From contig BQIV01000011.1 of assembly GCA_021604005.1 (NCBI GenBank), forward strand, positions 1-64,000: 64,000 nt of DNA, given 5' to 3'. Origin of the DNA: Nitrospirales bacterium (GTDB lineage: Bacteria; Nitrospirota; Nitrospiria; Nitrospirales; UBA8639). Below the pieces are notes generated by a model. That model saw only the letters and a list, made by a program, of their open reading frames with translations. It searched no databases and was not told where the DNA came from. Made by a program: the position numbers and the translations under genes. Shown here piece after piece: positions 42,709 through 64,000 of the stretch (position 1 is the first letter of the stretch; each line of letters begins with the position of its first letter).

Positions 42709-43992
42709 TTACTTTCCCTCAAATTTGGCCCCTCGTACACTTGCCACTGACCGAGAAATCAGACTTCCCCCAATGCGGTGCGCTTTCATCAAGTCATAAG
42801 CAGAATCCCAAGAACAGCCCGCCTGAGACCACATTAGAAATAAGGGAATGGCAAACCACCATTGAAGGTATAACTCAGACACCATAACCCCGAGGATCAT
42901 ACTCAAGGCTGCAATAGATTTCACGATGCTTTCACGTGGTGTAGAGTAGAAAAGAATGCCCACAAATATTACATAGGGCAAGATTCCTAGTACCCCATAA
43001 GATGCGAGGATAAATACAAAATGCGTATGAGTGAGAAGTTCAGCATATCGAATTGTAACAGCAGAGTTATATCCAACGCCCGTCAAGGGAGCATCAAGAA
43101 ACTGCTGAAAACTGGCTAGGGTAGCTCCCATTCTAATAGCAATACTTCCATCGTCGAATGATAGCCCCCGACCAAATGACATAACTGATAACAGCTCGCC
43201 GTATGGAAAAAGACCAACCAAATGAGCCAAAACCATGAGGGTAATTCCAAGGGGAAAAACAATTAAAATTCGTCTCATCGGCATTTTATCCAACAGCCAT
43301 AAAATCACCAATCCAAGAACGACCAGTGCAGCCCCACGAGTTTGATTTAACCAGAGAAGGAGCAGACTTAACCCCACGGTAAAAAATAGTGATATTCGGT
43401 GAATGACGCTTAGATTCTGGGGATGAAAAAATATTACGAGTAATATACTCATGATTGCCACATGTGAACTGATGTTCAGATGCAATACATTTGGTCTTTC
43501 TTCAAACCACTTCCATTGGGTTAGAATCCCCGGCACAACCCCAATATAAGAAAGAATCTGTAGGACAACCAGAAAAAGAATTGCATAGATACTTATTAGT
43601 ACGACAGTATCCCGAAGATTATCTTTTAAAGAATGGAAACTTTTAATCGAAAAATAGAAAAAAAACATCCAGAAGTACGATTGAATCAGATGTAGATTAA
43701 ATCCTCGAGTAAAACCATGCCAGTATTCAAGTACGCACCAGATAATCAGTGCAACCGCGAAAACCAAATCTGATGCATCAAATTGTATCTGTGGTATTCC
43801 CCGATCTGCGCACAGATACCAGTTGAAAACGAGAATCATCACACAGAAAGGCGCCAGCAATGTAAACTGATTTCCATAGGTATACGGAAGCGTGAATTTT
43901 TCTGCTACGTATCCAACTAGATTGAAACAAGCCACAATGACCAGCAATAGTGTAGCATTCACAAGAGAATTATGAGGAATTTTTATAACCAC
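42709..43992 (-). CDS. O-antigen polymerase/ligase-like membrane protein
   Basis: A 427-residue polytopic protein with about 10-12 hydrophobic segments and a longer periplasmic loop around 275-330 (GRGLSFDDGSIAIRMGATL, then APLTGVGYNS). The pattern HTHFVFILASYGVLG after that loop is characteristic of the Wzy_C/WaaL family. It either polymerises repeat units or joins glycan to an acceptor; sequence alone cannot separate the two. The stop abuts the Wzz-like start with no gap. Confidence 0.8.
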   Translation of the reverse strand: MVIKIPHNSLVNATLLLVIVACFNLVGYVAEKFTLPYTYGNQFTLLAPFCVMILVFNWYLCADRGIPQIQFDASDLVFAVALIIWCVLEYWHGFTRGFNLHLIQSYFWMFFFYFSIKSFHSLKDNLRDTVVLISIYAILFLVVLQILSYIGVVPGILTQWKWFEERPNVLHLNISSHVAIMSILLVIFFHPQNLSVIHRISLFFTVGLSLLLLWLNQTRGAALVVLGLVILWLLDKMPMRRILIVFPLGITLMVLAHLVGLFPYGELLSVMSFGRGLSFDDGSIAIRMGATLASFQQFLDAPLTGVGYNSAVTIRYAELLTHTHFVFILASYGVLGILPYVIFVGILFYSTPRESIVKSIAALSMILGVMVSELYLQWWFAIPLFLMWSQAGCSWDSAYDLMKAHRIGGSLISRSVASVRGAKFEGK

Positions 43993-44028: not shown

Positions 44029-45300
44029 CTATCCTGACCATCGAGCACTCCAAGCTTAGAGTATGAATTTATTCTATAATGAATATTGCCAACTTCTTGC
44101 CACAGATACATGCTGTTTCCACCAGGTGAGGATGGGCTCAAGCAAAAAAAACCGGCGTTGATAAGTCGTCGTTCATCAACCAAGTCACTTGCGCGCCCAC
44201 GCAACGGGCCAAAGCCATTGATCGACAGGCACACTAAAGCCTATCTTATGTCTTTCCATGAGTTTTTTGGTAATATATTTTGCCAAAATTTCGCGCATTT
44301 TTTAGATCGCCTCTGACGAAGCTTCAGCAAGAGAGAGACCTTCTATTTTCAAGCACACGACAATCGAGCAACGGCACCAGGGCTTCTAGGCTAACATTCA
44401 TGTTTGCTCTGTCAACTTTCGTCAAGATATCATTCGGCAAATAGTCAAGCATGCCTGTAATTGCATTGACTTCACAAAAGCATGACTTTCTTGGTTCGCT
44501 ATTCTCTTCCGAAACCTGCTGTTCCTGGAACTATTCTTGTTTCATTTGATCAGGCTGACAATAAAATCTGGCAGGCATGGCATTCATTCTGACGGGCAAT
44601 CACATCAACTAATTTGTGGAGCTGATCACCTAATCGAGAAGGAACTGGAATTCTCAATATCCCTAACGACAGGATATCTCAAGTTAAAGTAATGCGGCAT
44701 GTAATTCTACTGGAACATATGCGACGGATAAAAAACGACCACAACTCAACACTAAGATACTTTGCGACTTTTTTTGCAGTACATCTTGACTGTAACCTCT
44801 TCATAAAACCCAGCACCAAATGCTCATAACGGTTGTGAACTTTGGTCCTACTTCAAGGTAACCACGTCATCCACCCCTCTCGAGAGCAACGAACCAAGTA
44901 AAACATACAGAATCATACGTCATTGAACGGCCGATAGAAGCCGTGCATCCAGTTCTTCAACAAAGTATTCAGAATCCTCATCACGACAGTTGACCAGATC
45001 CTGTCTTGCGATTGCAGTCAAACCCCAGTACCCCATGTACTGCTGAAATCCAAATAACACCCGACTCTTTCGGCACCTCCAATAAAAAGGCTTGCAGCCC
45101 AAACGGTCTCGAACTAAATTTAAACGTACGTTCTTGGCTGTCCCACGCACTGAAGGCAAACGTCCCAATACAACTACAACGACGAATCGTGTGAGTAATG
45201 CCCAAGCTTCACATCTATTCAAAAGTACCTCGTGTCAGGACAGTTTTCCTAAGTTTTTCAGGTTATTTAGACAGTAATATGATTCTCGTTACTTCATCCA
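44029..45300 (-). pseudogene. Decayed asparagine synthetase (asnB) pseudogene
   Basis: Segments of an AsnB homologue can be read on the minus strand across three frames. From 5' to 3': a glutaminase-domain piece (GTFAFSAWD, then shifted to VRDRLGCKPFYW) near 45050-45220; a damaged PP-loop SRGVDD near 44870; LGDQLHKLVDVIARQ near 44620; [15 protein letters not shown] and LEALVPLLD near 44360-44440; LMERHKIGFSVPVDQWL, then PLRGRASDLVDERR and SWQYSL near 44070-44290; then a final frame ending TAG at 44029-44031. Multiple frameshifts, stops and an internal deletion show it is dead. Both ends are approximate, especially the 5' end. Confidence 0.88.
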
Positions 45301-46335: not shown

Positions 46336-47496
46336 TCAGGTATGCTCACTCAACAATTCTTCATACAGTTTTTCATATTCAGCTACACATGCCCTGACAG
46401 AAAATAGCTGCTGCACTCTCACACGACCAGCTGCCCCCATACAACGTCGCTTTCCTGGATCCTTCACAAGTGTCAGTATAGCTCTCCCAAGTTTTTCTGG
46501 ACATTTTGGTGGGACAATTATTCCCGTTTCCCCATCTATTACAGCTTCTGCATTACCTCCCACATCAGTAACAACCATTGGTAGTCCCGCAGCCATACCT
46601 TCCAAAATACTGTTGGAAAATCCCTCCTGATGAGAACAAAGCACTCCAATATCTGCACTGAACAATAATTCTGGAATCCGCTCTCTTTGCTCCCCCAAAA
46701 ATTGAATATTGGAATGAATCCCTAATTCCTTAGCTTTCTGTTCCAGGCGCAGCTGAAGACAATAAGGTTTGCCTACGCAAAGTAACTTCCAGGAAGTTGT
46801 AAGAGCTTCACGGATATTGCTGAGTGCCATTAGCAAGTCCTCATGCCCCTTATACGGTATGAGATTAGCAACTACAACAATTAGAACTATGTTTGGGGCA
46901 ATGTTTAACCATTTGCGGGTTGTTGTTCGAGACAGTCCTCCCCCATACTTGCAAACATCAACTCCATTGTAGATTAAACGTAACTGTCTTTCTGACACTC
47001 CTTCGGCAACTAACTGATGCAACACGGCGTTAGAATTTGCCACAATTCGATGCATCCAGCGATTCATATAACGTTCCAGCTGAGATACTAGGGGGTATTT
47101 TTTTTGATAGTCATTCAAACTGCGACGACTCATAATGCGAATAGGCACGCCTGCCAATATTCCGCAAACACCACCAACAAAATGAGACAACGGCAAATAA
47201 CAATGCACAATATCAGGCTGTTCTTTTCGAAGAAAACAGTACAGATTCATCATCGATCGTAGGACACGGGTAGCGGTTCGAATTGGATTGCCAGATTCAA
47301 ATAACTTACCTTGTGAGAGTGTAACGACCCTGACCCCATTTTTCCCTACTTCACATGCGAGAGTTCCTGCATGCGTGAGCGTAAAAATACTCGGCTCAAA
47401 ACGGCTCCGATCAAGGCGTGGCACAATTTCAACAATATGACCTTCTGCACCACCAATATCCAGGCTACCGATAACATATAGGATCTTGACTCTCAT
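46336..47496 (-). CDS. GT4-family glycosyltransferase
   Basis: A 386-residue GT-B enzyme. The N-terminal domain opens with SLDIGGAEGHIVEI, the usual acceptor-side glycine loop; the C-terminal domain has FLGEQRERIPELLFSADIGVL and the nucleotide-sugar site SHQEGFSNSILEGMAAGLP, with the E-x7-E retaining-GT4 pattern. It transfers a sugar from a nucleotide donor to the growing repeat unit on the cytoplasmic face. Donor and linkage cannot be read. Confidence 0.88.
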   Translation of the reverse strand: MRVKILYVIGSLDIGGAEGHIVEIVPRLDRSRFEPSIFTLTHAGTLACEVGKNGVRVVTLSQGKLFESGNPIRTATRVLRSMMNLYCFLRKEQPDIVHCYLPLSHFVGGVCGILAGVPIRIMSRRSLNDYQKKYPLVSQLERYMNRWMHRIVANSNAVLHQLVAEGVSERQLRLIYNGVDVCKYGGGLSRTTTRKWLNIAPNIVLIVVVANLIPYKGHEDLLMALSNIREALTTSWKLLCVGKPYCLQLRLEQKAKELGIHSNIQFLGEQRERIPELLFSADIGVLCSHQEGFSNSILEGMAAGLPMVVTDVGGNAEAVIDGETGIIVPPKCPEKLGRAILTLVKDPGKRRCMGAAGRVRVQQLFSVRACVAEYEKLYEELLSEHT

Positions 47497-47727: not shown

Positions 47728-49515
47728 CTAACCTTTACTCAAAAAATCTTCCAGGACACATAATCTAACTGCCAACCCTGTATATCGATCATTCAATCGG
47801 TTTTGCCATATCTCCTGGCAAAGTGCGTGGGGAAGACCCCGTATCACATCACATGATTTTGGAGCTATGCTTAAATAGCGTTTGGTGGGGTAAACAAAAC
47901 CTTGTTTACTTTTGGAAAGAAGGTCTTGGGGTATGTAGCGATAGAGAAGTTGTCTAAGAACATACTTTTGTCCATATTGCATAAATGCTCTCTGGTCCAA
48001 CTTCGATGTTTCTGCCAACAACTCGCGTGATAAAAAGGGCGTCCGTACCTCAACACTAGCACGCATACTACCCCGCTCAACAGCAGAAATATAACTACCT
48101 GGAAGCGTCTGGGTTAGATCAAAATCTCTTGCCAAGTAGACAAGATCTCGTTTGTCTGAGGAAAAATCCTTAATATACGAATCCGGTAAGTGATGCAAAC
48201 TCCGAAGCATCAGGCCAAGCCCATAATTTTTCAATGATATAAACTGCCACGCCTTATCACCACAGAATAACTCCTGCGCTAACCTCAGCTTGTGAAAGGC
48301 ACCAAACTTCATACCTTTAATTCTGCTGAAGAGCCTTGCAAGATACCGATAGGCAAATCTGTGCTGGTACAAGAAAAAATACTTACTGTACCCATAAAAT
48401 AATTCATCACCACCCAATCCAGACAATGCAACAGAAACGCTGGGCTTGATTAATTCAGACATCTGTCTGACTGCGATCACCGTGGGATTATCATTCGGGA
48501 CACCATAGAGACTTCTGAGTTCTGCAGGGATGTGTTGCCAGCTTAAATCCTGGAGGCTATTTATGACTTGATGCCGTATGCCGAAATGACAGGCAACACG
48601 CTTCGCTGCATCACTTTCATCCACACCATCTGCAAATGAGACCGTAAAAGCACTAATATCGACATTCAACTCCTTCGCAATTAATGCAGCAAGAAGGGTG
48701 GAATCTACCCCACTTGACAGAAAAAGCCCTACAGGCACATCAGAACGTAATCGGCGGCGTAACGATTCAATCAAAACTTCCAATATGCGATCAAGGTCAT
48801 TTTCATCAGGTTTATGGATGATCCCTCTTTTTACAGTGACCTGAGGGATACTCCAGTAACGACTCTCATCAACTTGAAACCGTTGATTGATTGTGAGATG
48901 AGTGGAAGGGCGGACTATTGATAAGCTGGGAAAACCTGTCTCTGGCGCTGGGAAAAACCCCATTCCTAAAAAAAATGTTACTTGCTCACCTGTCGGTTCA
49001 AAACCAAGATTGAGCAGCTCGGTTAATACTCCTGCTTCGGAGGAAAAATAAATCCCGCTAGATAATCTTGACCAATATAAAGGTTTTTCTCCAAATGGAT
49101 CACTGACTAAATGCACACAATCACCGTCGTAAATGACAAATGCATACATACCGTCAAACCGATCTAACGCAAATTTACCCCACTCCATCCATGCTACCAA
49201 CAACACTTCCGTATCGCTGGAAGTTTGAAATTCCCAACCAAGAATGATTAGCTCTTTTCGTACTTCAAGATAATTGTAAAGTTCTCCATTGTACGCAATA
49301 ACGTGATTTTTCCTAACCATTGGCTGACTGGCTCCATCAGATCTATCTATAATTGCCAGCCTAGTATGTCCCAAATATAATCCTTTTCCCGCGTCGCACC
49401 ACTCTCCATTACCATCAGGTCCACGATGCCGAAGCATCTCTGCTCCACGCCTACCAAATTCTTTGTCTTCCACAACAAGAGGGCGTTTTAAGAAAAATCC
49501 AAAAATTCCACACAT
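47728..49515 (-). CDS. asnB: Asparagine synthetase, second homologue
   Basis: A 595-residue AsnB homologue with an intact glutaminase domain (Cys2, HRGPDG, YNGELYN, SDTEVLL) and a synthetase domain whose PP-loop reads SSGVDS (267-272) instead of SGGVDS. Ser for the first Gly is a tolerated variant in some homologues but could change activity. It lies 10 nt downstream of the Cys-less homologue, so the two are probably co-expressed. It likely amidates a carboxylate on a sugar or amino acid. Confidence 0.86.
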   Translation of the reverse strand: MCGIFGFFLKRPLVVEDKEFGRRGAEMLRHRGPDGNGEWCDAGKGLYLGHTRLAIIDRSDGASQPMVRKNHVIAYNGELYNYLEVRKELIILGWEFQTSSDTEVLLVAWMEWGKFALDRFDGMYAFVIYDGDCVHLVSDPFGEKPLYWSRLSSGIYFSSEAGVLTELLNLGFEPTGEQVTFFLGMGFFPAPETGFPSLSIVRPSTHLTINQRFQVDESRYWSIPQVTVKRGIIHKPDENDLDRILEVLIESLRRRLRSDVPVGLFLSSGVDSTLLAALIAKELNVDISAFTVSFADGVDESDAAKRVACHFGIRHQVINSLQDLSWQHIPAELRSLYGVPNDNPTVIAVRQMSELIKPSVSVALSGLGGDELFYGYSKYFFLYQHRFAYRYLARLFSRIKGMKFGAFHKLRLAQELFCGDKAWQFISLKNYGLGLMLRSLHHLPDSYIKDFSSDKRDLVYLARDFDLTQTLPGSYISAVERGSMRASVEVRTPFLSRELLAETSKLDQRAFMQYGQKYVLRQLLYRYIPQDLLSKSKQGFVYPTKRYLSIAPKSCDVIRGLPHALCQEIWQNRLNDRYTGLAVRLCVLEDFLSKG

Positions 49516-49525
49516 TGGGGAAAAA

Positions 49526-51340
49526 TCACCTTATTTGGTGCAGAAAACGATGCAGAGTTATGAGGGTTACCGCTAAACCACCACCGCCGGCAGGTTGCGC
49601 AAACCAAACCTCAAATGCATGACGAAGGCTAGGCCAATCAATGTAATCTAACGCAACCTCAAGCTCTTCTGACCAGATAGCCTGCCTTGCTAGAGCCATA
49701 TAATCCTTATGAGTACGAAGATAAATGTCTCTGTCTGGCCAAGTTCTATCTTTCGCACTCGGAGCTTGTAAATGCATTTTACCGGTGAGATGCCGCATAA
49801 CTTTACGTCCAATGAGATAACTAGTCTTATAGATAGGTGAAGCTCCTGCAGCTATGCCCCAATTGCCAGTCGGTATTCCTGCTAGATCCGAAGCTAACTT
49901 CTTCATCGCGTACCTCATGGGCTGTGCATAGAGCCGGTGCTTCGGAATCAATGATGCATAAAACTCGAACAATCGGTTGTCAAAGCTGACTGTACGTTCT
50001 TCCGCATAAACCCCTTTACTCGTAATATTTGGACGGGAATAATGTCGACCTAACGCGTGTATCAGAAGATATTCCCAGCGGTCATAATTCGTCTGACAAA
50101 CATCATCGCCTGACCTCAGAACTTGCGTCACTGATTCCCTTAACATTTCCCACATGCGATTTTTCCAAGCTGGCTTAAGAAAATCCAAAAGAGGGACCTG
50201 TTTTAACCGAAAAGGAATCGTCTTGAGATATAATTCAGATATGTTTCCATCGATTGGAGACAAACGGCGAAAAAAGGTAGGACTGCCCAACAAAAATATC
50301 GGATGGGCCGTCAGATAAATTCCTTGAAAGAAATAATCAAAACCATGCCCATGAAACAGCACATCTGCATTAGGAATGATATCTGCCGCCATGCCCAGAA
50401 AAAGAGCGTGGTCGGTTGCATACATACCACCACACAGGTATGACGCCTCATCAATATATTTCATAAAATGGGAATCGTCCAATGACACGTATCGATGCAT
50501 TGCATTGACCGCATGTGCAGCAAGTCTTGCACACTGAACTTCGTAATTGTCCGAAAAGGCCACAGTAAAACATTCAGGAGGCTTTTCAAAGGCAGCAAGG
50601 AGAGTGCGACTATCGTGTCCACCACTCAGGAAAAGGCCATATTTCTTCTGACTACAATCACTCGTTCTTGACCGGATGGCCTGCACCAGCAACGAAGTAA
50701 ACTCCTCTCCAGCTTCTACCGTAGTTCTACTCTTTTTTGAAAAATCTGGACGCCAATAATGTCGCGCGATAACACCTTTTTGTCCTATAGCCAGCTTAGT
50801 TGCTGGGAGCAAATAACTTGATTGGGAATCATAAGTCTTATCTCCCAACAACCTTTGCAACCAAATAAACTCAAACATGGGTTCCGTGCGTAAACATGCT
50901 CCAAATCTATTCCTCAGACACTTAATAAGATCAATATACCCCGTAGCAGCTACAAAATAACCGTCCACATTAGCCCAAAAAAGAGAGACTCCATTAAATC
51001 TATCATTAATTACATAGACTTCTCGTTTAGACTTATCAGCTATTACTACTAAAAACTGTCCATTGATATTAGGCAGCACAGCATCAATTTCTTGACCAGA
51101 TATCAACCATTCTGCGAGAGTGTCAGCATTTATCTTGTCATTTACAATTGGCCCACCAATAATTAAGACATCCCTAAATTTCGACTTCTTGATATGGGGA
51201 GCAGGATGGAGATTTCGACAACCAACCACTACCCCGCGTCCTGTTGGGTATGTGCCCTCAAGAAGTTGAATTTCCGGCATTGCAACCGTAGACCATTCAA
51301 TGGTCATCGCTGGAATAGAATATTCAAAATCTTGAATCAT
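49526..51340 (-). CDS. Asparagine-synthetase-like ligase lacking glutaminase Cys
   Basis: A 604-residue protein with the AsnB layout but a degenerate N-terminal domain: it starts MIQDFEYS with no Cys2 and lacks the HRGPDG and YNGE motifs, although INGQFLVVIADKS and NDRFNGVSLFW still follow the glutaminase fold. The synthetase domain keeps PP-loop SGGHDS (239-244). Without the Cys it cannot release ammonia from glutamine, so it would use free ammonia, or another amine as beta-lactam synthetase and lasso-peptide cyclases do. Its start overlaps the upstream gene by 4 nt. Confidence 0.8.
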   Translation of the reverse strand: MIQDFEYSIPAMTIEWSTVAMPEIQLLEGTYPTGRGVVVGCRNLHPAPHIKKSKFRDVLIIGGPIVNDKINADTLAEWLISGQEIDAVLPNINGQFLVVIADKSKREVYVINDRFNGVSLFWANVDGYFVAATGYIDLIKCLRNRFGACLRTEPMFEFIWLQRLLGDKTYDSQSSYLLPATKLAIGQKGVIARHYWRPDFSKKSRTTVEAGEEFTSLLVQAIRSRTSDCSQKKYGLFLSGGHDSRTLLAAFEKPPECFTVAFSDNYEVQCARLAAHAVNAMHRYVSLDDSHFMKYIDEASYLCGGMYATDHALFLGMAADIIPNADVLFHGHGFDYFFQGIYLTAHPIFLLGSPTFFRRLSPIDGNISELYLKTIPFRLKQVPLLDFLKPAWKNRMWEMLRESVTQVLRSGDDVCQTNYDRWEYLLIHALGRHYSRPNITSKGVYAEERTVSFDNRLFEFYASLIPKHRLYAQPMRYAMKKLASDLAGIPTGNWGIAAGASPIYKTSYLIGRKVMRHLTGKMHLQAPSAKDRTWPDRDIYLRTHKDYMALARQAIWSEELEVALDYIDWPSLRHAFEVWFAQPAGGGGLAVTLITLHRFLHQIR

Positions 51341-53832: not shown

Positions 53833-54846
53833 TCACGAGTCGGACACAAACGGACTAGATGGGCCAAAACAATCTCTCACTACAAGCTTACCAATCTTTA
53901 ATGCCCCAAGGTTACTGAGATGATTTTCATTCGTAAAGTCCTTTAGGTCACTGAGCCGATCCCAATAATTGACATACTTCACCTTCTGCTTTTTTGCAAA
54001 ATTTTCAAAAAATACAGGAACCGCTGCATAGGCTGGATACTCCTTGGCCGCCTGCCTGAATGCGGGAGACATTGGATAGGTCACCAAACAGACATCAGCT
54101 TCACGACTACGAAGGAATTTCACCATTGAATGGTAGATTTTCGCAGCCTTTGATCCCAAAAGGTTAATTCCAGGAATTTCCTTCATCACCGTGTTACGCG
54201 CGCGCCGTATCCGCTCCGTTTCCGGCATTCTAGCGTATCTAATATTTTCTTCCGGATCCAACGGCACAAGCGTTCCATCGGGCAATATCTGAAATTTCGT
54301 TTCGAACTTGCCTTTCAACAGAAAAACTTTCCAGTACTGCAATAAGCGATGAGTATGGGTGGGACGTAATGACCGCCACATTCCATGATTGCCGCGCAGG
54401 AATATTTTCTTATAATTACTCAGCGATCGAGGGTCTGTGTTCGCTTCAAGAATCGGGGTTACTCTCAAGACGCCATTATCCCCTTCTGGCTGAAACACAT
54501 TGTGGTTTGCTCCAAGAATCACTCTCCCCGGCCTCTTCGCTTGGAAATATCCTCTTACCTTGATTTCCGTTCTTTCTAGCGTCTCACCTTGTAACGCAAG
54601 ATTGACGAAATCAGGTTGTCCACGAAACCCATAGAGTGAAATCGAGTCTCCAAAAACCACATTGCGCCGATCGGACTCAAAGAACACGTTTATACTCTGT
54701 GCATAGTGATCATTGGGTTCGACCTTGCTGCGAACAAGCCATTCCGATGAGATAAGAAACAGAAAAAACAGACTAAAAACAGCAGCCAGGAAAAAGACAC
54801 TCCATGTCCGAAACCTAAAACTGGAAGTAGATAAATTCATGGTCAT
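53833..54846 (-). CDS. SGNH-like acyl-transfer partner of MBOAT
   Basis: A 337-residue membrane-anchored protein: TM helix about 14-34, then a periplasmic SGNH-like domain with GDSIS (66-70, the Ser nucleophile block), GANHNVF near 117-123 and NENHLSNLGA near the C terminus supplying the His. AlgX/AlgJ and DltD are analogous partners of MBOAT proteins. The gene overlaps the MBOAT gene end by 32 nt, so the pair should move acyl groups onto a periplasmic glycan. Confidence 0.78.
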   Translation of the reverse strand: MTMNLSTSSFRFRTWSVFFLAAVFSLFFLFLISSEWLVRSKVEPNDHYAQSINVFFESDRRNVVFGDSISLYGFRGQPDFVNLALQGETLERTEIKVRGYFQAKRPGRVILGANHNVFQPEGDNGVLRVTPILEANTDPRSLSNYKKIFLRGNHGMWRSLRPTHTHRLLQYWKVFLLKGKFETKFQILPDGTLVPLDPEENIRYARMPETERIRRARNTVMKEIPGINLLGSKAAKIYHSMVKFLRSREADVCLVTYPMSPAFRQAAKEYPAYAAVPVFFENFAKKQKVKYVNYWDRLSDLKDFTNENHLSNLGALKIGKLVVRDCFGPSSPFVSDS

Positions 54847-56437
54847 GCCCTACCAAGATAAAGATCAGGGATATCACCGCCAATCCCACTATCCAACACC
54901 CATTCCAGGAATTAGCCCGCCAGGTCAGCAGTGCGTCCAGACTGATCACTTTTCTTGTACTAGCCTTCATGAAAGGGACAGAAGAATGAAATTTAAAATT
55001 TTGAATGACCGTTGGCCGGTAGTAGCAAAATATTTGCTGAGTATTAGGCAGCAACCAGAGACAAATATAGGCTGGGACCAACCAGGCTATTACCGGCGCC
55101 CCCCCCCAGAAGGGAGTGATATTGAATGTCCAACCCATCGCCTTGAGAATGTTTGCTAATGGACCCAACAGGGCCTCATAAGAAGCAGGGAGAGTGAAAC
55201 CTCCTCCTCCTACCATCCCAATGATGACTAAATTCGCAGCCCCGAATGTCTCAGAGCGAAAAAACACCCAAGCAACCATCACGAAAAAAAAGGTGACTCC
55301 AATTGCCAGCAAACGGAAAACACGAGATAAACTCGGCCATCGTCCTACCACATTGAAACCAAGACTGTAGCGTAGGGCACACCAGCGATGATTGATAATC
55401 ATGTACAATCCATGAAGCCCACCCCAGACAACGAACGTCCATGCTGCACCATGCCATAACCCGGCGATCAACATCGTCACCATGATATTGATATCTCGTT
55501 TCAGGTTGCCTTCCCGATTGCCACCCATCGGAATGTATAAATACTCGCGCAGGAAGCGCGATAATGTCATATGCCAACGTCGCCAAAATTCAATGATGGA
55601 ATCCGCTTTATACGGCGAAAAGAAATTCATCGGCAAACGGATTCCAAACAACCGCGCTAACCCAATGGCCATATCTGAGTATCCTGAAAAATCAAAATAG
55701 ATCTGAGCGGTGAACGCTAGTAATGCAGTCCAAGACTCCACGAAACTAATCGGTGTCCCAGCGTTGGCTGCCGCGAATACCGGATCGGCATAAAAAGCCA
55801 AGGTGTCAGCAAACACGACTTTTTTAAATAATCCAATCGTAAGAATCGACAATCCGACGGCTACATCTACCCAAGGCCTTCTTCTATACTCCATAGATCG
55901 ATATTGATCGCAAACCTCATTGAAATGAACAATCGGCCCGGCAATGAGCTGAGGGAAAAATACAACAAACAACAGATAATCTTGGAATGAGAACTCCGAT
56001 ATAATCTCCCGCTTCACCTCAACAAGAAAAGCGATCTGCTGAAATGTAAAGAATGAAATGGCGAGAGGCAAAACAATATTCGTGAATGTCCATCCGAGGG
56101 CAAGAGTTTCATTGATGGTTTCGATAAAGAAGTTAGTGTATTTGAAGTACCCCAAAACGATAAGATTGACCGCGATCCCAAAAACCAAAACCTTCAAAAC
56201 CCTTCTCGAGAATCCCGAATTTCTACAGCGCTCGATAAATCGTGCAATTCCATAATTAAATATGACTGAAAACAATAATAAGAGAATATAAGGAGGATTC
56301 CACCACGCATAAAATACGAGTGATGCACTAATTAATAACCATACTGCAGCTCTAAAATGGATTCTGCGCAGGAGATAAAAGGCTGTCACCACAAGAGGAA
56401 CAAAGACGAATAAGAATTGAAAAGAGTTGAAAAGCAT
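54815..56437 (-). CDS. MBOAT-family O-acyltransferase (AlgI/DltB-like)
   Basis: A 540-residue polytopic protein with the AlgI/DltB signature: FWRRWHMTLSRFLREYLYIP (around 270-290) and the catalytic His in GLWHGAAW (about 326-333). It carries acyl groups, usually acetyl, across the inner membrane to an extracytoplasmic acceptor. The C-terminal part (about 440-500) is longer and less conserved. It is the upstream partner of the SGNH gene. Confidence 0.9.
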   Translation of the reverse strand: MLFNSFQFLFVFVPLVVTAFYLLRRIHFRAAVWLLISASLVFYAWWNPPYILLLLFSVIFNYGIARFIERCRNSGFSRRVLKVLVFGIAVNLIVLGYFKYTNFFIETINETLALGWTFTNIVLPLAISFFTFQQIAFLVEVKREIISEFSFQDYLLFVVFFPQLIAGPIVHFNEVCDQYRSMEYRRRPWVDVAVGLSILTIGLFKKVVFADTLAFYADPVFAAANAGTPISFVESWTALLAFTAQIYFDFSGYSDMAIGLARLFGIRLPMNFFSPYKADSIIEFWRRWHMTLSRFLREYLYIPMGGNREGNLKRDINIMVTMLIAGLWHGAAWTFVVWGGLHGLYMIINHRWCALRYSLGFNVVGRWPSLSRVFRLLAIGVTFFFVMVAWVFFRSETFGAANLVIIGMVGGGGFTLPASYEALLGPLANILKAMGWTFNITPFWGGAPVIAWLVPAYICLWLLPNTQQIFCYYRPTVIQNFKFHSSVPFMKASTRKVISLDALLTWRANSWNGCWIVGLAVISLIFILVGHDHEFIYFQF

Positions 56438-62771: not shown

Positions 62772-64000
62772 TCAACAAGACCGAGTTCCCATTACTTTCT
62801 GAACGAACGCCATATCCTTTTTCATGAACGAAGCATCAATAGCTTCACTCAATTTGTCAAATCTGATCTGTGCACGATTCTCACTATCGTACCACCCACG
62901 AATCACAGCACAACGCCGCTCAAATAAGAGTTGATCTTCATCAGGGAGTCTATTAAACCCAAAGTCGATAAACACAATTGGCATGTCTGTCTGAAGAGCA
63001 AATCCAAATGTCGTCGTGAGTGGCCAATCGAATACCAACACATCGGCACAATCATATACGTTTTCAAACAATCCGGAGAGCTCTTCCACACCAAACTGGG
63101 TACCAAAGACTTCAGGTGGATTCGTCGGGCACTGCGGGTGCGGTTTCTGGTAGATAAGAATCCCTTGCTCTTTGAGTTTACAGAACAGCCGAGCCTGCCA
63201 ATCTACCGCAACGATTGATGGCATTAGAGGAGCGGGCCCTACGATGTCGGTTGGGAAATACGGCGTGACATACAGGATTCTTTTTGACTGAATTTTGGTC
63301 GATCGCAGGGCAGGTTTCTGCATCCGTTTCCCAGCGAACTCTTTTAACGAATCTGTGAGATAGTGCAATTGAGGCATATGCCCAGTAATGAGATACTTTC
63401 GGCAATTTTGTTCATACAAGTCTGCCTGTGCTTTTGAAAAGGTAACAAATACATCACAACTCTGAAACTCCGTAAATGGAACCGGGGAGATTTCTGAATA
63501 ACTCGCACCCAATACGTGATCATGGCTCACAACGGTACCGCCCTTGCATCGAACGGCATGGGCCAATAGACGGGACCAAATTATCCCAGACGATCCGGCC
63601 CACAAGGTCTTTGGAAGTCGATCTGAATTTCTTCTAAGCCTTTCTCGATAGAAATCGATCCACGCGTAAGCTTCACTTAACCAATTAACCAAATAAGACA
63701 CTAAGTATGGCGGCAGTTTACCGCCTCGCTCAGCAAACCCCATGTTCAATTCTTCTAACAACTGCAGAGCCAATTCCAGTGCGACATTCTTGTTGAATAG
63801 AGTTACACATTCATGCGTGGCAGGAGGGTAAAACCATTCATTTAACGGACACAACACTACACGCGCAGACTCCTGCTCCACATGCGCAGTGGTGAGCGGA
63901 CAATTGGTCACACAAACAATGTCGTGGTCAAAATCAATAAACTCTATAGATCTTCTCGTAAACCCATCGCGCTCCTGGAAAGCGCGAAGGGGGCGTAACG
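62772..64000 (-). CDS. Surface polysaccharide transferase-like protein, 5' end off window
   Basis: At least 409 codons; the frame stays open through the right edge of the window, so the true start lies beyond 64000 and the GTG at 63911 is internal (upstream codons read RRSIEFIDFDHDIVCVTN). The C-terminal half has a GT-B-like layout: LYVTPYFPTD, IYQKPHPQCP, DVLVFDWPLTTTFGFALQTDMPIVFID, similar to transferases of the CDP-glycerol or capsule type. The downstream neighbour is the PEP-mutase pseudogene. Confidence 0.65.
   Translation of the reverse strand, partial: LRPLRAFQERDGFTRRSIEFIDFDHDIVCVTNCPLTTAHVEQESARVVLCPLNEWFYPPATHECVTLFNKNVALELALQLLEELNMGFAERGGKLPPYLVSYLVNWLSEAYAWIDFYRERLRRNSDRLPKTLWAGSSGIIWSRLLAHAVRCKGGTVVSHDHVLGASYSEISPVPFTEFQSCDVFVTFSKAQADLYEQNCRKYLITGHMPQLHYLTDSLKEFAGKRMQKPALRSTKIQSKRILYVTPYFPTDIVGPAPLMPSIVAVDWQARLFCKLKEQGILIYQKPHPQCPTNPPEVFGTQFGVEELSGLFENVYDCADVLVFDWPLTTTFGFALQTDMPIVFIDFGFNRLPDEDQLLFERRCAVIRGWYDSENRAQIRFDKLSEAIDASFMKKDMAFVQKVMGTRSC

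Follow-up and report, generated by a model that had tools for sequence, protein, structure and literature searches.

We describe here a Cys-less protein of the AsnB fold, encoded in a surface-glycan cluster of a Nitrospirales bacterium. It falls within a divergent, newly recognized clade of Cys-less AsnB-like proteins found in Alphaproteobacteria, Omnitrophota, one Salidesulfovibrio and this genome. The protein is a real finding that gains in interest when seen together with its relatives. Nonulosonic acids and various other sugars of bacteria are known to carry amino acids and related groups in amide linkage, and to our knowledge most of the enzymes that join them are unassigned. The family is a concrete candidate for such a joining enzyme, being widely scattered, glutaminase-free, marked by a conserved new motif and associated with both nonulosonate clusters and a single clade of AsnB. 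Our tentative reading, which we consider quite possible, is that the protein takes part in building a surface glycan that contains nonulosonic acid, as a ligase that forms amides with ATP and independently of glutamine, beside a glutamine-dependent AsnB.

Table 1. Features of the glycan cluster, with positions in the window (the whole 64,000-nt stretch of DNA analysed)
Feature	Positions	Strand	Remarks
Wzy_C/O-antigen ligase-type membrane protein	42709..43992	-	
GT4-family glycosyltransferase	46336..47496	-	downstream of the Cys-less protein/AsnB pair
Complete partner AsnB	47728..49515	-	595 aa; MCGIFGF, HRGPDG, YNGE, GGDELFYGY
Cys-less AsnB-like protein	49526..51340	-	604 aa, ATG start; N-terminal Ntn-like domain ~36-197, PP-loop synthetase domain ~205-604
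Family motif, residues 331-342	50315..50350	-	GHGFDYFFQGIY; stands where AsnB has GxGGDELFxGY
PP-loop, residues 239-245	50606..50626	-	SGGHDSR
Glycosyltransferase PF13524	51337..52413	-	upstream of the Cys-less protein, ATGA overlap
MBOAT O-acyltransferase	54815..56437	-	adjacent ORF 53833-54846

Domain organization and predicted structure

Sequence and structural model support the assignment of the protein as an AsnB-fold member with a dead glutaminase domain. The original prediction of a glutaminase outline devoid of Cys2, HRGPDG and YNGE holds for the 604-residue translation, which begins with MIQDFEYS and contains none of these elements; the Pfam model GATase_7 matches only residues 82–132, with 22.3 bits against a cut-off of 25. 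The PP-loop is intact, as had also been predicted, and Asn_synthase scores above its cut-off (51.7 bits). An overlooked upstream start providing an N-terminal Cys, named at the outset as a possible refutation, is excluded: 5′ of the ATG, a TAG is followed by just five codons (AGA TAT CCT TGC TGC, encoding RYPCC; open frame of 609 aa), and since no start codon is among them, the extension cannot supply the Cys. Matches to the NCBIfam models for glutamine-hydrolysing AsnB (TIGR01536, 64.8 bits, cut-off 267.1), lasso peptide cyclase (NF033535, 31.6 bits, cut-off 525) and eps_aminotran_1 (TIGR03108, 38 bits, cut-off 816.9) all remained below their cut-offs.

A PDB search with the single sequence gave zero matches, and beta-lactam synthetase (1jgt) matched weakly (E 0.11) over residues 208–290 only. 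The AlphaFold2 model based on six orthologues (mean pLDDT 79, pTM 0.82, first 36 residues unsure) yielded the AsnB/beta-lactam-synthetase fold expected from the original prediction, with VIA-align Z-scores of 20.8 for beta-lactam synthetase, 20.6 for E. coli AsnB and 19.1 for carbapenam synthetase. The top full-length match was the hydroxyamidotransferase TsnB9 (7ylz; Z 24.4 over 476 residues), which shares 12% identity with the protein but starts with MCG and keeps the N-terminal Cys. The beta-lactam and carbapenam synthetases (Z ~19–21) resemble the protein in being Cys-less two-domain enzymes of the AsnB fold with an Ntn domain and an intact PP-loop, but they are only ~12–15% identical to it, and the protein differs from them in its replaced Glu-Tyr acyl site and its glycan context. 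Furthermore, the N-terminal part of the model matches the Ntn domains of EgtC, PurF and GlmS (Z ~9–10 in Foldseek and VIA-align), indicating that the outline of the glutaminase fold has been retained without its nucleophile.

Phylogenetic distribution

No orthologues were detected in genomes of the same order (97 genomes), class (269) or phylum (395), so the gene is an accessory one in this lineage; several ordinary AsnB genes are present in the host genome. Querying the genomes with this protein alone gave no hits; the orthologues emerged from a scan of genome contigs with a three-sequence alignment. Five clear homologues, with 27–45% identity over 90–99% of the length, come from a Pseudorhodoplanes MAG (L016, 45%), an Omnitrophota MAG (L017, 35%), Salidesulfovibrio brasiliensis (L019, 33%), a Pelagibacteraceae genome (L018, 32%) and an alphaproteobacterial MAG (L020, 27%). 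A profile of these five and the query (A4) gives the family more than 150 bits and ordinary AsnB mostly ~30–80. With this profile, further members were found in 3 of 285 genomes from the phylum of L017 and in 12 of 385 from the class of L016 (E up to 1e-35 in both), and no further member was found among 277 genomes from the phylum of L019. Phages gave no match, and viral contigs only weak AsnB-like ones.

Cys2 is absent at the listed start of all 25 members of the Cys-less clade. In the synthetase-domain tree, a 100/100 branch separates the Cys-less members, together with haloarchaeal ‘asparagine synthase-related proteins’, from complete AsnB; L004 forms a long branch of unsure placement. The haloarchaeal plasmid proteins resemble the protein in lacking Cys2 (MVG start) and the dyad and in having an SGGSDSR-type loop, but they are only 20–24% identical to the query, carry the motif GLYSDTLFKG and have other neighbourhoods. 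Numerous Cys-less proteins with such loops occur on haloarchaeal megaplasmids (L011–L015), including one tandem pair in L015. In the wider alphaproteobacterial clade (L062–L066), a Cys-less AsnB is repeatedly arranged near FkbM-type methyltransferase, DUF7033 and WbqC-family genes. The Nitrospirales genome itself encodes a second Cys2-less AsnB-like protein (contig C10, L002 712–2607, minus strand; start MSGICGIAF); its SGGIDSS loop and GGDELF motif are of the ordinary kind, and it clusters with ordinary AsnB.

Remodelling of the synthetase active site

In the profile alignment, the AsnB site G347 E348 G349 S350 D351 E352 ... Y357 (numbering of 1ct9, E. coli AS-B, counted on the alignment) lies opposite G331 H332 G333 F334 D335 Y336 ... 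I341 of the Cys-less protein. The Mg/PPi-binding D351 is retained as D335. In the core members, E348 is substituted by His, E352 by Tyr (Y336) and Y357 by Ile or Met (I341), the last position being adjoined by the invariant Tyr342. Thus, none of the six core members keeps the Glu-Tyr dyad (E352–Y357); in its place they share a conserved GHGxDYxFQGxY, whereas their complete partners retain GxG[GS]DE and Y. Within the core, SGGxD[ST]R, H332, D335, Y336, Y342, R449, D454 and N493 show little or no variation; MAFFT places the invariant N493 at the position of the catalytic Lys (K449), although hhalign aligns this stretch differently. SGGxD[ST]R combined with GHGxDYxFQGxY can serve as an annotation rule separating the family from asparagine synthetase, under which its relatives are currently filed.

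The C-terminal domain is better conserved than the N-terminal one, both in mean identity (34.5% versus 27.9%) and in invariant columns (43 versus 11), whereas mean identity in the partner AsnB runs the opposite way (42.9 in the N-domain and 36.1 in the C-domain). By sequence conservation, the protein would look like a working, re-tooled synthetase that carries a vestigial glutaminase domain. A Glu-Tyr dyad of equal spacing is reported for five amidating AsnB-like enzymes, with activity lost when the Tyr is changed (PMC13060819); going by this spacing, we read it as equivalent to E352–Y357. The altered dyad weakens the direct analogy with beta-lactam synthetase, and the predicted likeness to that enzyme and to lasso cyclases is, as worded, unsupported by the six core members. 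With the dyad presumed to assist carboxylate adenylation absent, the enzyme may catalyse a reaction other than this one. A degenerate acyl-adenylate site would have spoken against the prediction, and its replacement throughout the core goes half of that way: the motifs for ATP and pyrophosphate persist, whereas the acyl residues have changed and yet are conserved within the family.

Genomic context

Neighbourhoods were read as ORFs of at least 90 aa. Besides the glycosyltransferases and the Wzy-like protein, the cluster contains an MBOAT O-acyltransferase that would carry out O-acylation of the glycan (Table 1). Homologues of the upstream glycosyltransferase occur in L016, L020, L056, L057, L071 and L087, and the one in L016 overlaps the Cys-less gene by 4 nt as well. 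Past the window end (L030, contig positions 64001–84000), nonulosonate genes occupy positions 65055–76568 of the same contig, with NeuC at 480 bits (cut-off 236), NeuB at 477 (cut-off 400) and NeuD at 226 (cut-off 161) in NCBIfam, accompanied by a CMP-nonulosonate-type cytidylyltransferase, a LegC-like aminotransferase, a formyltransferase and a PIG-L deacetylase. Judging from these genes, the cluster encodes a nonulosonic acid pathway, probably of the legionaminic type. NeuB is present in 7/7 core clusters (the six core loci and G949), in 5/14 wider-clade loci within 9 kb and in 1/9 AsnB-like loci from the same scan that lie outside the family, counts that come from small samples with unequal flank sizes, NeuB being 20 kb from the Cys-less gene in this genome.

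The original prediction had envisaged a dedicated sugar-amide chemistry and put forward uronic-acid nucleotides as substrates to try. Its broader part is favoured by the surface-glycan setting and by the recurring coupling to a glycosyltransferase and an AsnB; the uronic-acid substrate is not, because a nonulosonic acid pathway was found rather than evident uronic-acid genes, making a nonulosonate or its exposed amine the likelier substrate. In L017, a PIG-L deacetylase gene overlaps the start of the Cys-less gene by 4 nt; among the core clusters, PIG-L was found only there and in this genome. At the start of the glycan cluster (window ~38000–64000), G+C falls from ~0.50 to 0.43; together with the lack of orthologues in relatives, this makes the cluster look horizontally acquired.

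Association with a dedicated AsnB clade

The coordinates confirm the ATGA overlap with the glycosyltransferase and the 10-nt gap, on the 3′ side, to a complete AsnB. The partners of the Cys-less proteins form a dedicated AsnB clade (100/99) in the synthetase-domain tree. A partner-clade AsnB (680–960 bits) is present in 7/7 core genomes and in 0/14 genomes that have only wider-clade members, where the best AsnB reaches 406 bits. In 6/7 core genomes the two genes stand side by side, in one order or the other, with a gap of -4 to 10 nt; in the seventh, G949, whose Cys-less protein groups with L020, the partner (680 bits) belongs to the same cluster but at a distance of ~20 kb. G501 carries a second copy of the Cys-less gene, split over two contigs, which ends beside an AsnB (L072) that scores 253 bits and falls outside the partner clade. 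The partner clade also occurs without the Cys-less protein in four alphaproteobacteria, three of them readable (L084–L086), which rules out strict two-way dependence and means that dependence runs one way. That the clade is always tied to nonulosonate genes is likewise unsupported, NeuB not being seen in L085 and L086.

This pairing bears on an alternative that we regard as unlikely but worth weighing, namely, that the Cys-less protein serves as the synthetase component of an amidotransferase made up of two proteins, and would take ammonia from the partner AsnB or use free ammonia to place a carboxamide or acetamidino (amidine) group on the nonulosonate. The constant presence and frequent adjacency of a partner with an intact glutaminase agree with it, and the identities between pairs of Cys-less proteins track those between their partners (r 0.66, with 11/720 permutations as high), although this correlation could result from shared descent alone. 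Moreover, acetimidoyl groups occur on nonulosonates, to go by a title cited in PMC7371886. By contrast, wider-clade members with similar motifs lack such a partner, the partner has an intact synthetase site of its own in addition to occurring alone, and no N-acetyl sugar amidotransferase model was among the NCBIfam matches.

We consider it improbable that the Cys-less protein is a catalytically silent pseudo-enzyme, associating with the complete AsnB in a heteromer to scaffold or regulate it. The ever-present partner in the core subclade and the loss of both the glutaminase Cys and the Glu-Tyr dyad would fit such a role, but the PP-loop and the Mg/PPi Asp are kept, the synthetase domain is the better conserved one, the remodelled motif is itself conserved and wider-clade relatives exist without the partner.

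Proposed function

As an amide-forming ligase, the Cys-less protein would adenylate a carboxylate and join it to an amine other than glutamine-derived ammonia, its target being a nonulosonate or a neighbouring glycan residue. Most likely, either a sugar amine, bared by the cluster deacetylase, would be acylated with an amino or hydroxy acid, or an amine would be joined to the nonulosonate carboxylate as an amide. The complete AsnB next to it would act like WbpS-type enzymes and form a simple carboxamide elsewhere in this glycan. The sugar amidotransferases WbpS, WbqG and eps_aminotran_1 (TIGR03108) are of AsnB type, occur in surface-glycan clusters and exemplify the likely role of the partner (298.2 bits to TIGR03108, below the cut-off of 816.9); they have a glutaminase, unlike the Cys-less protein.

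Several glycans provide precedents. Flagellin of C. botulinum carries 5-(N-methyl-glutam-4-yl) legionaminic acid, substituted on N5 (PMC5207245), and a methyltransferase, with no ligase named, has been tied to N-methyl-glutam-4-yl legionaminic acid (PMC13317340). In Porphyromonas, a linking sugar undergoes deacetylation and then aminoacylation, and the AsnB-type WbpS makes a uronamide (PMC7468200). The Bordetella b-Cool locus, whose glycan has two uronamides, includes a putative asparagine synthase (PMC12407052). By analogy, these cases make carboxamide formation by the partner AsnB likely and an N-acyl role of the Cys-less protein plausible, no more; our literature search found no paper joining asparagine synthase with legionaminic acid.

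Against the amide-ligase reading stand the missing Glu-Tyr dyad, the lack of an acyl donor or amine-generating gene common to all clusters, the frequent lack of nonulosonate genes within 9 kb in the wider clade, and the unequal flank sizes. The more specific proposal, that a hitherto undescribed family of ligases, derived from AsnB and remodelled at the acyl site, attaches amino or other acids to nonulosonic acids in tandem with a dedicated glutamine-dependent AsnB, has in our estimate a rather low probability; if it is true, the family would supply the ligase class so far missing for nonulosonates with amide decorations. Some other adenylation chemistry on the same fold (such as amide-carbonyl activation, a nitrile- or hydroxamate-forming step, or adenylylation) is very improbable: the nearest structural match is a hydroxyamidotransferase, the AsnB-like PesC makes a nitrile (PMC13060819) and the acyl residues are replaced, but no cluster gene points to such a product, and Z rank among AsnB-fold enzymes is no functional evidence.

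Additional features of the clusters

A remnant AsnB gene with frameshifts and stops (window 44050–45166, minus strand; 23–59% AsnB identity in several frames) sits between a methyltransferase and the Wzy-like gene. Homologous proteins of 490–555 aa that match no Pfam family are encoded in two of the nonulosonate clusters, at window positions 62772–64000 (running into L030) and at 2004–3479 of L016.
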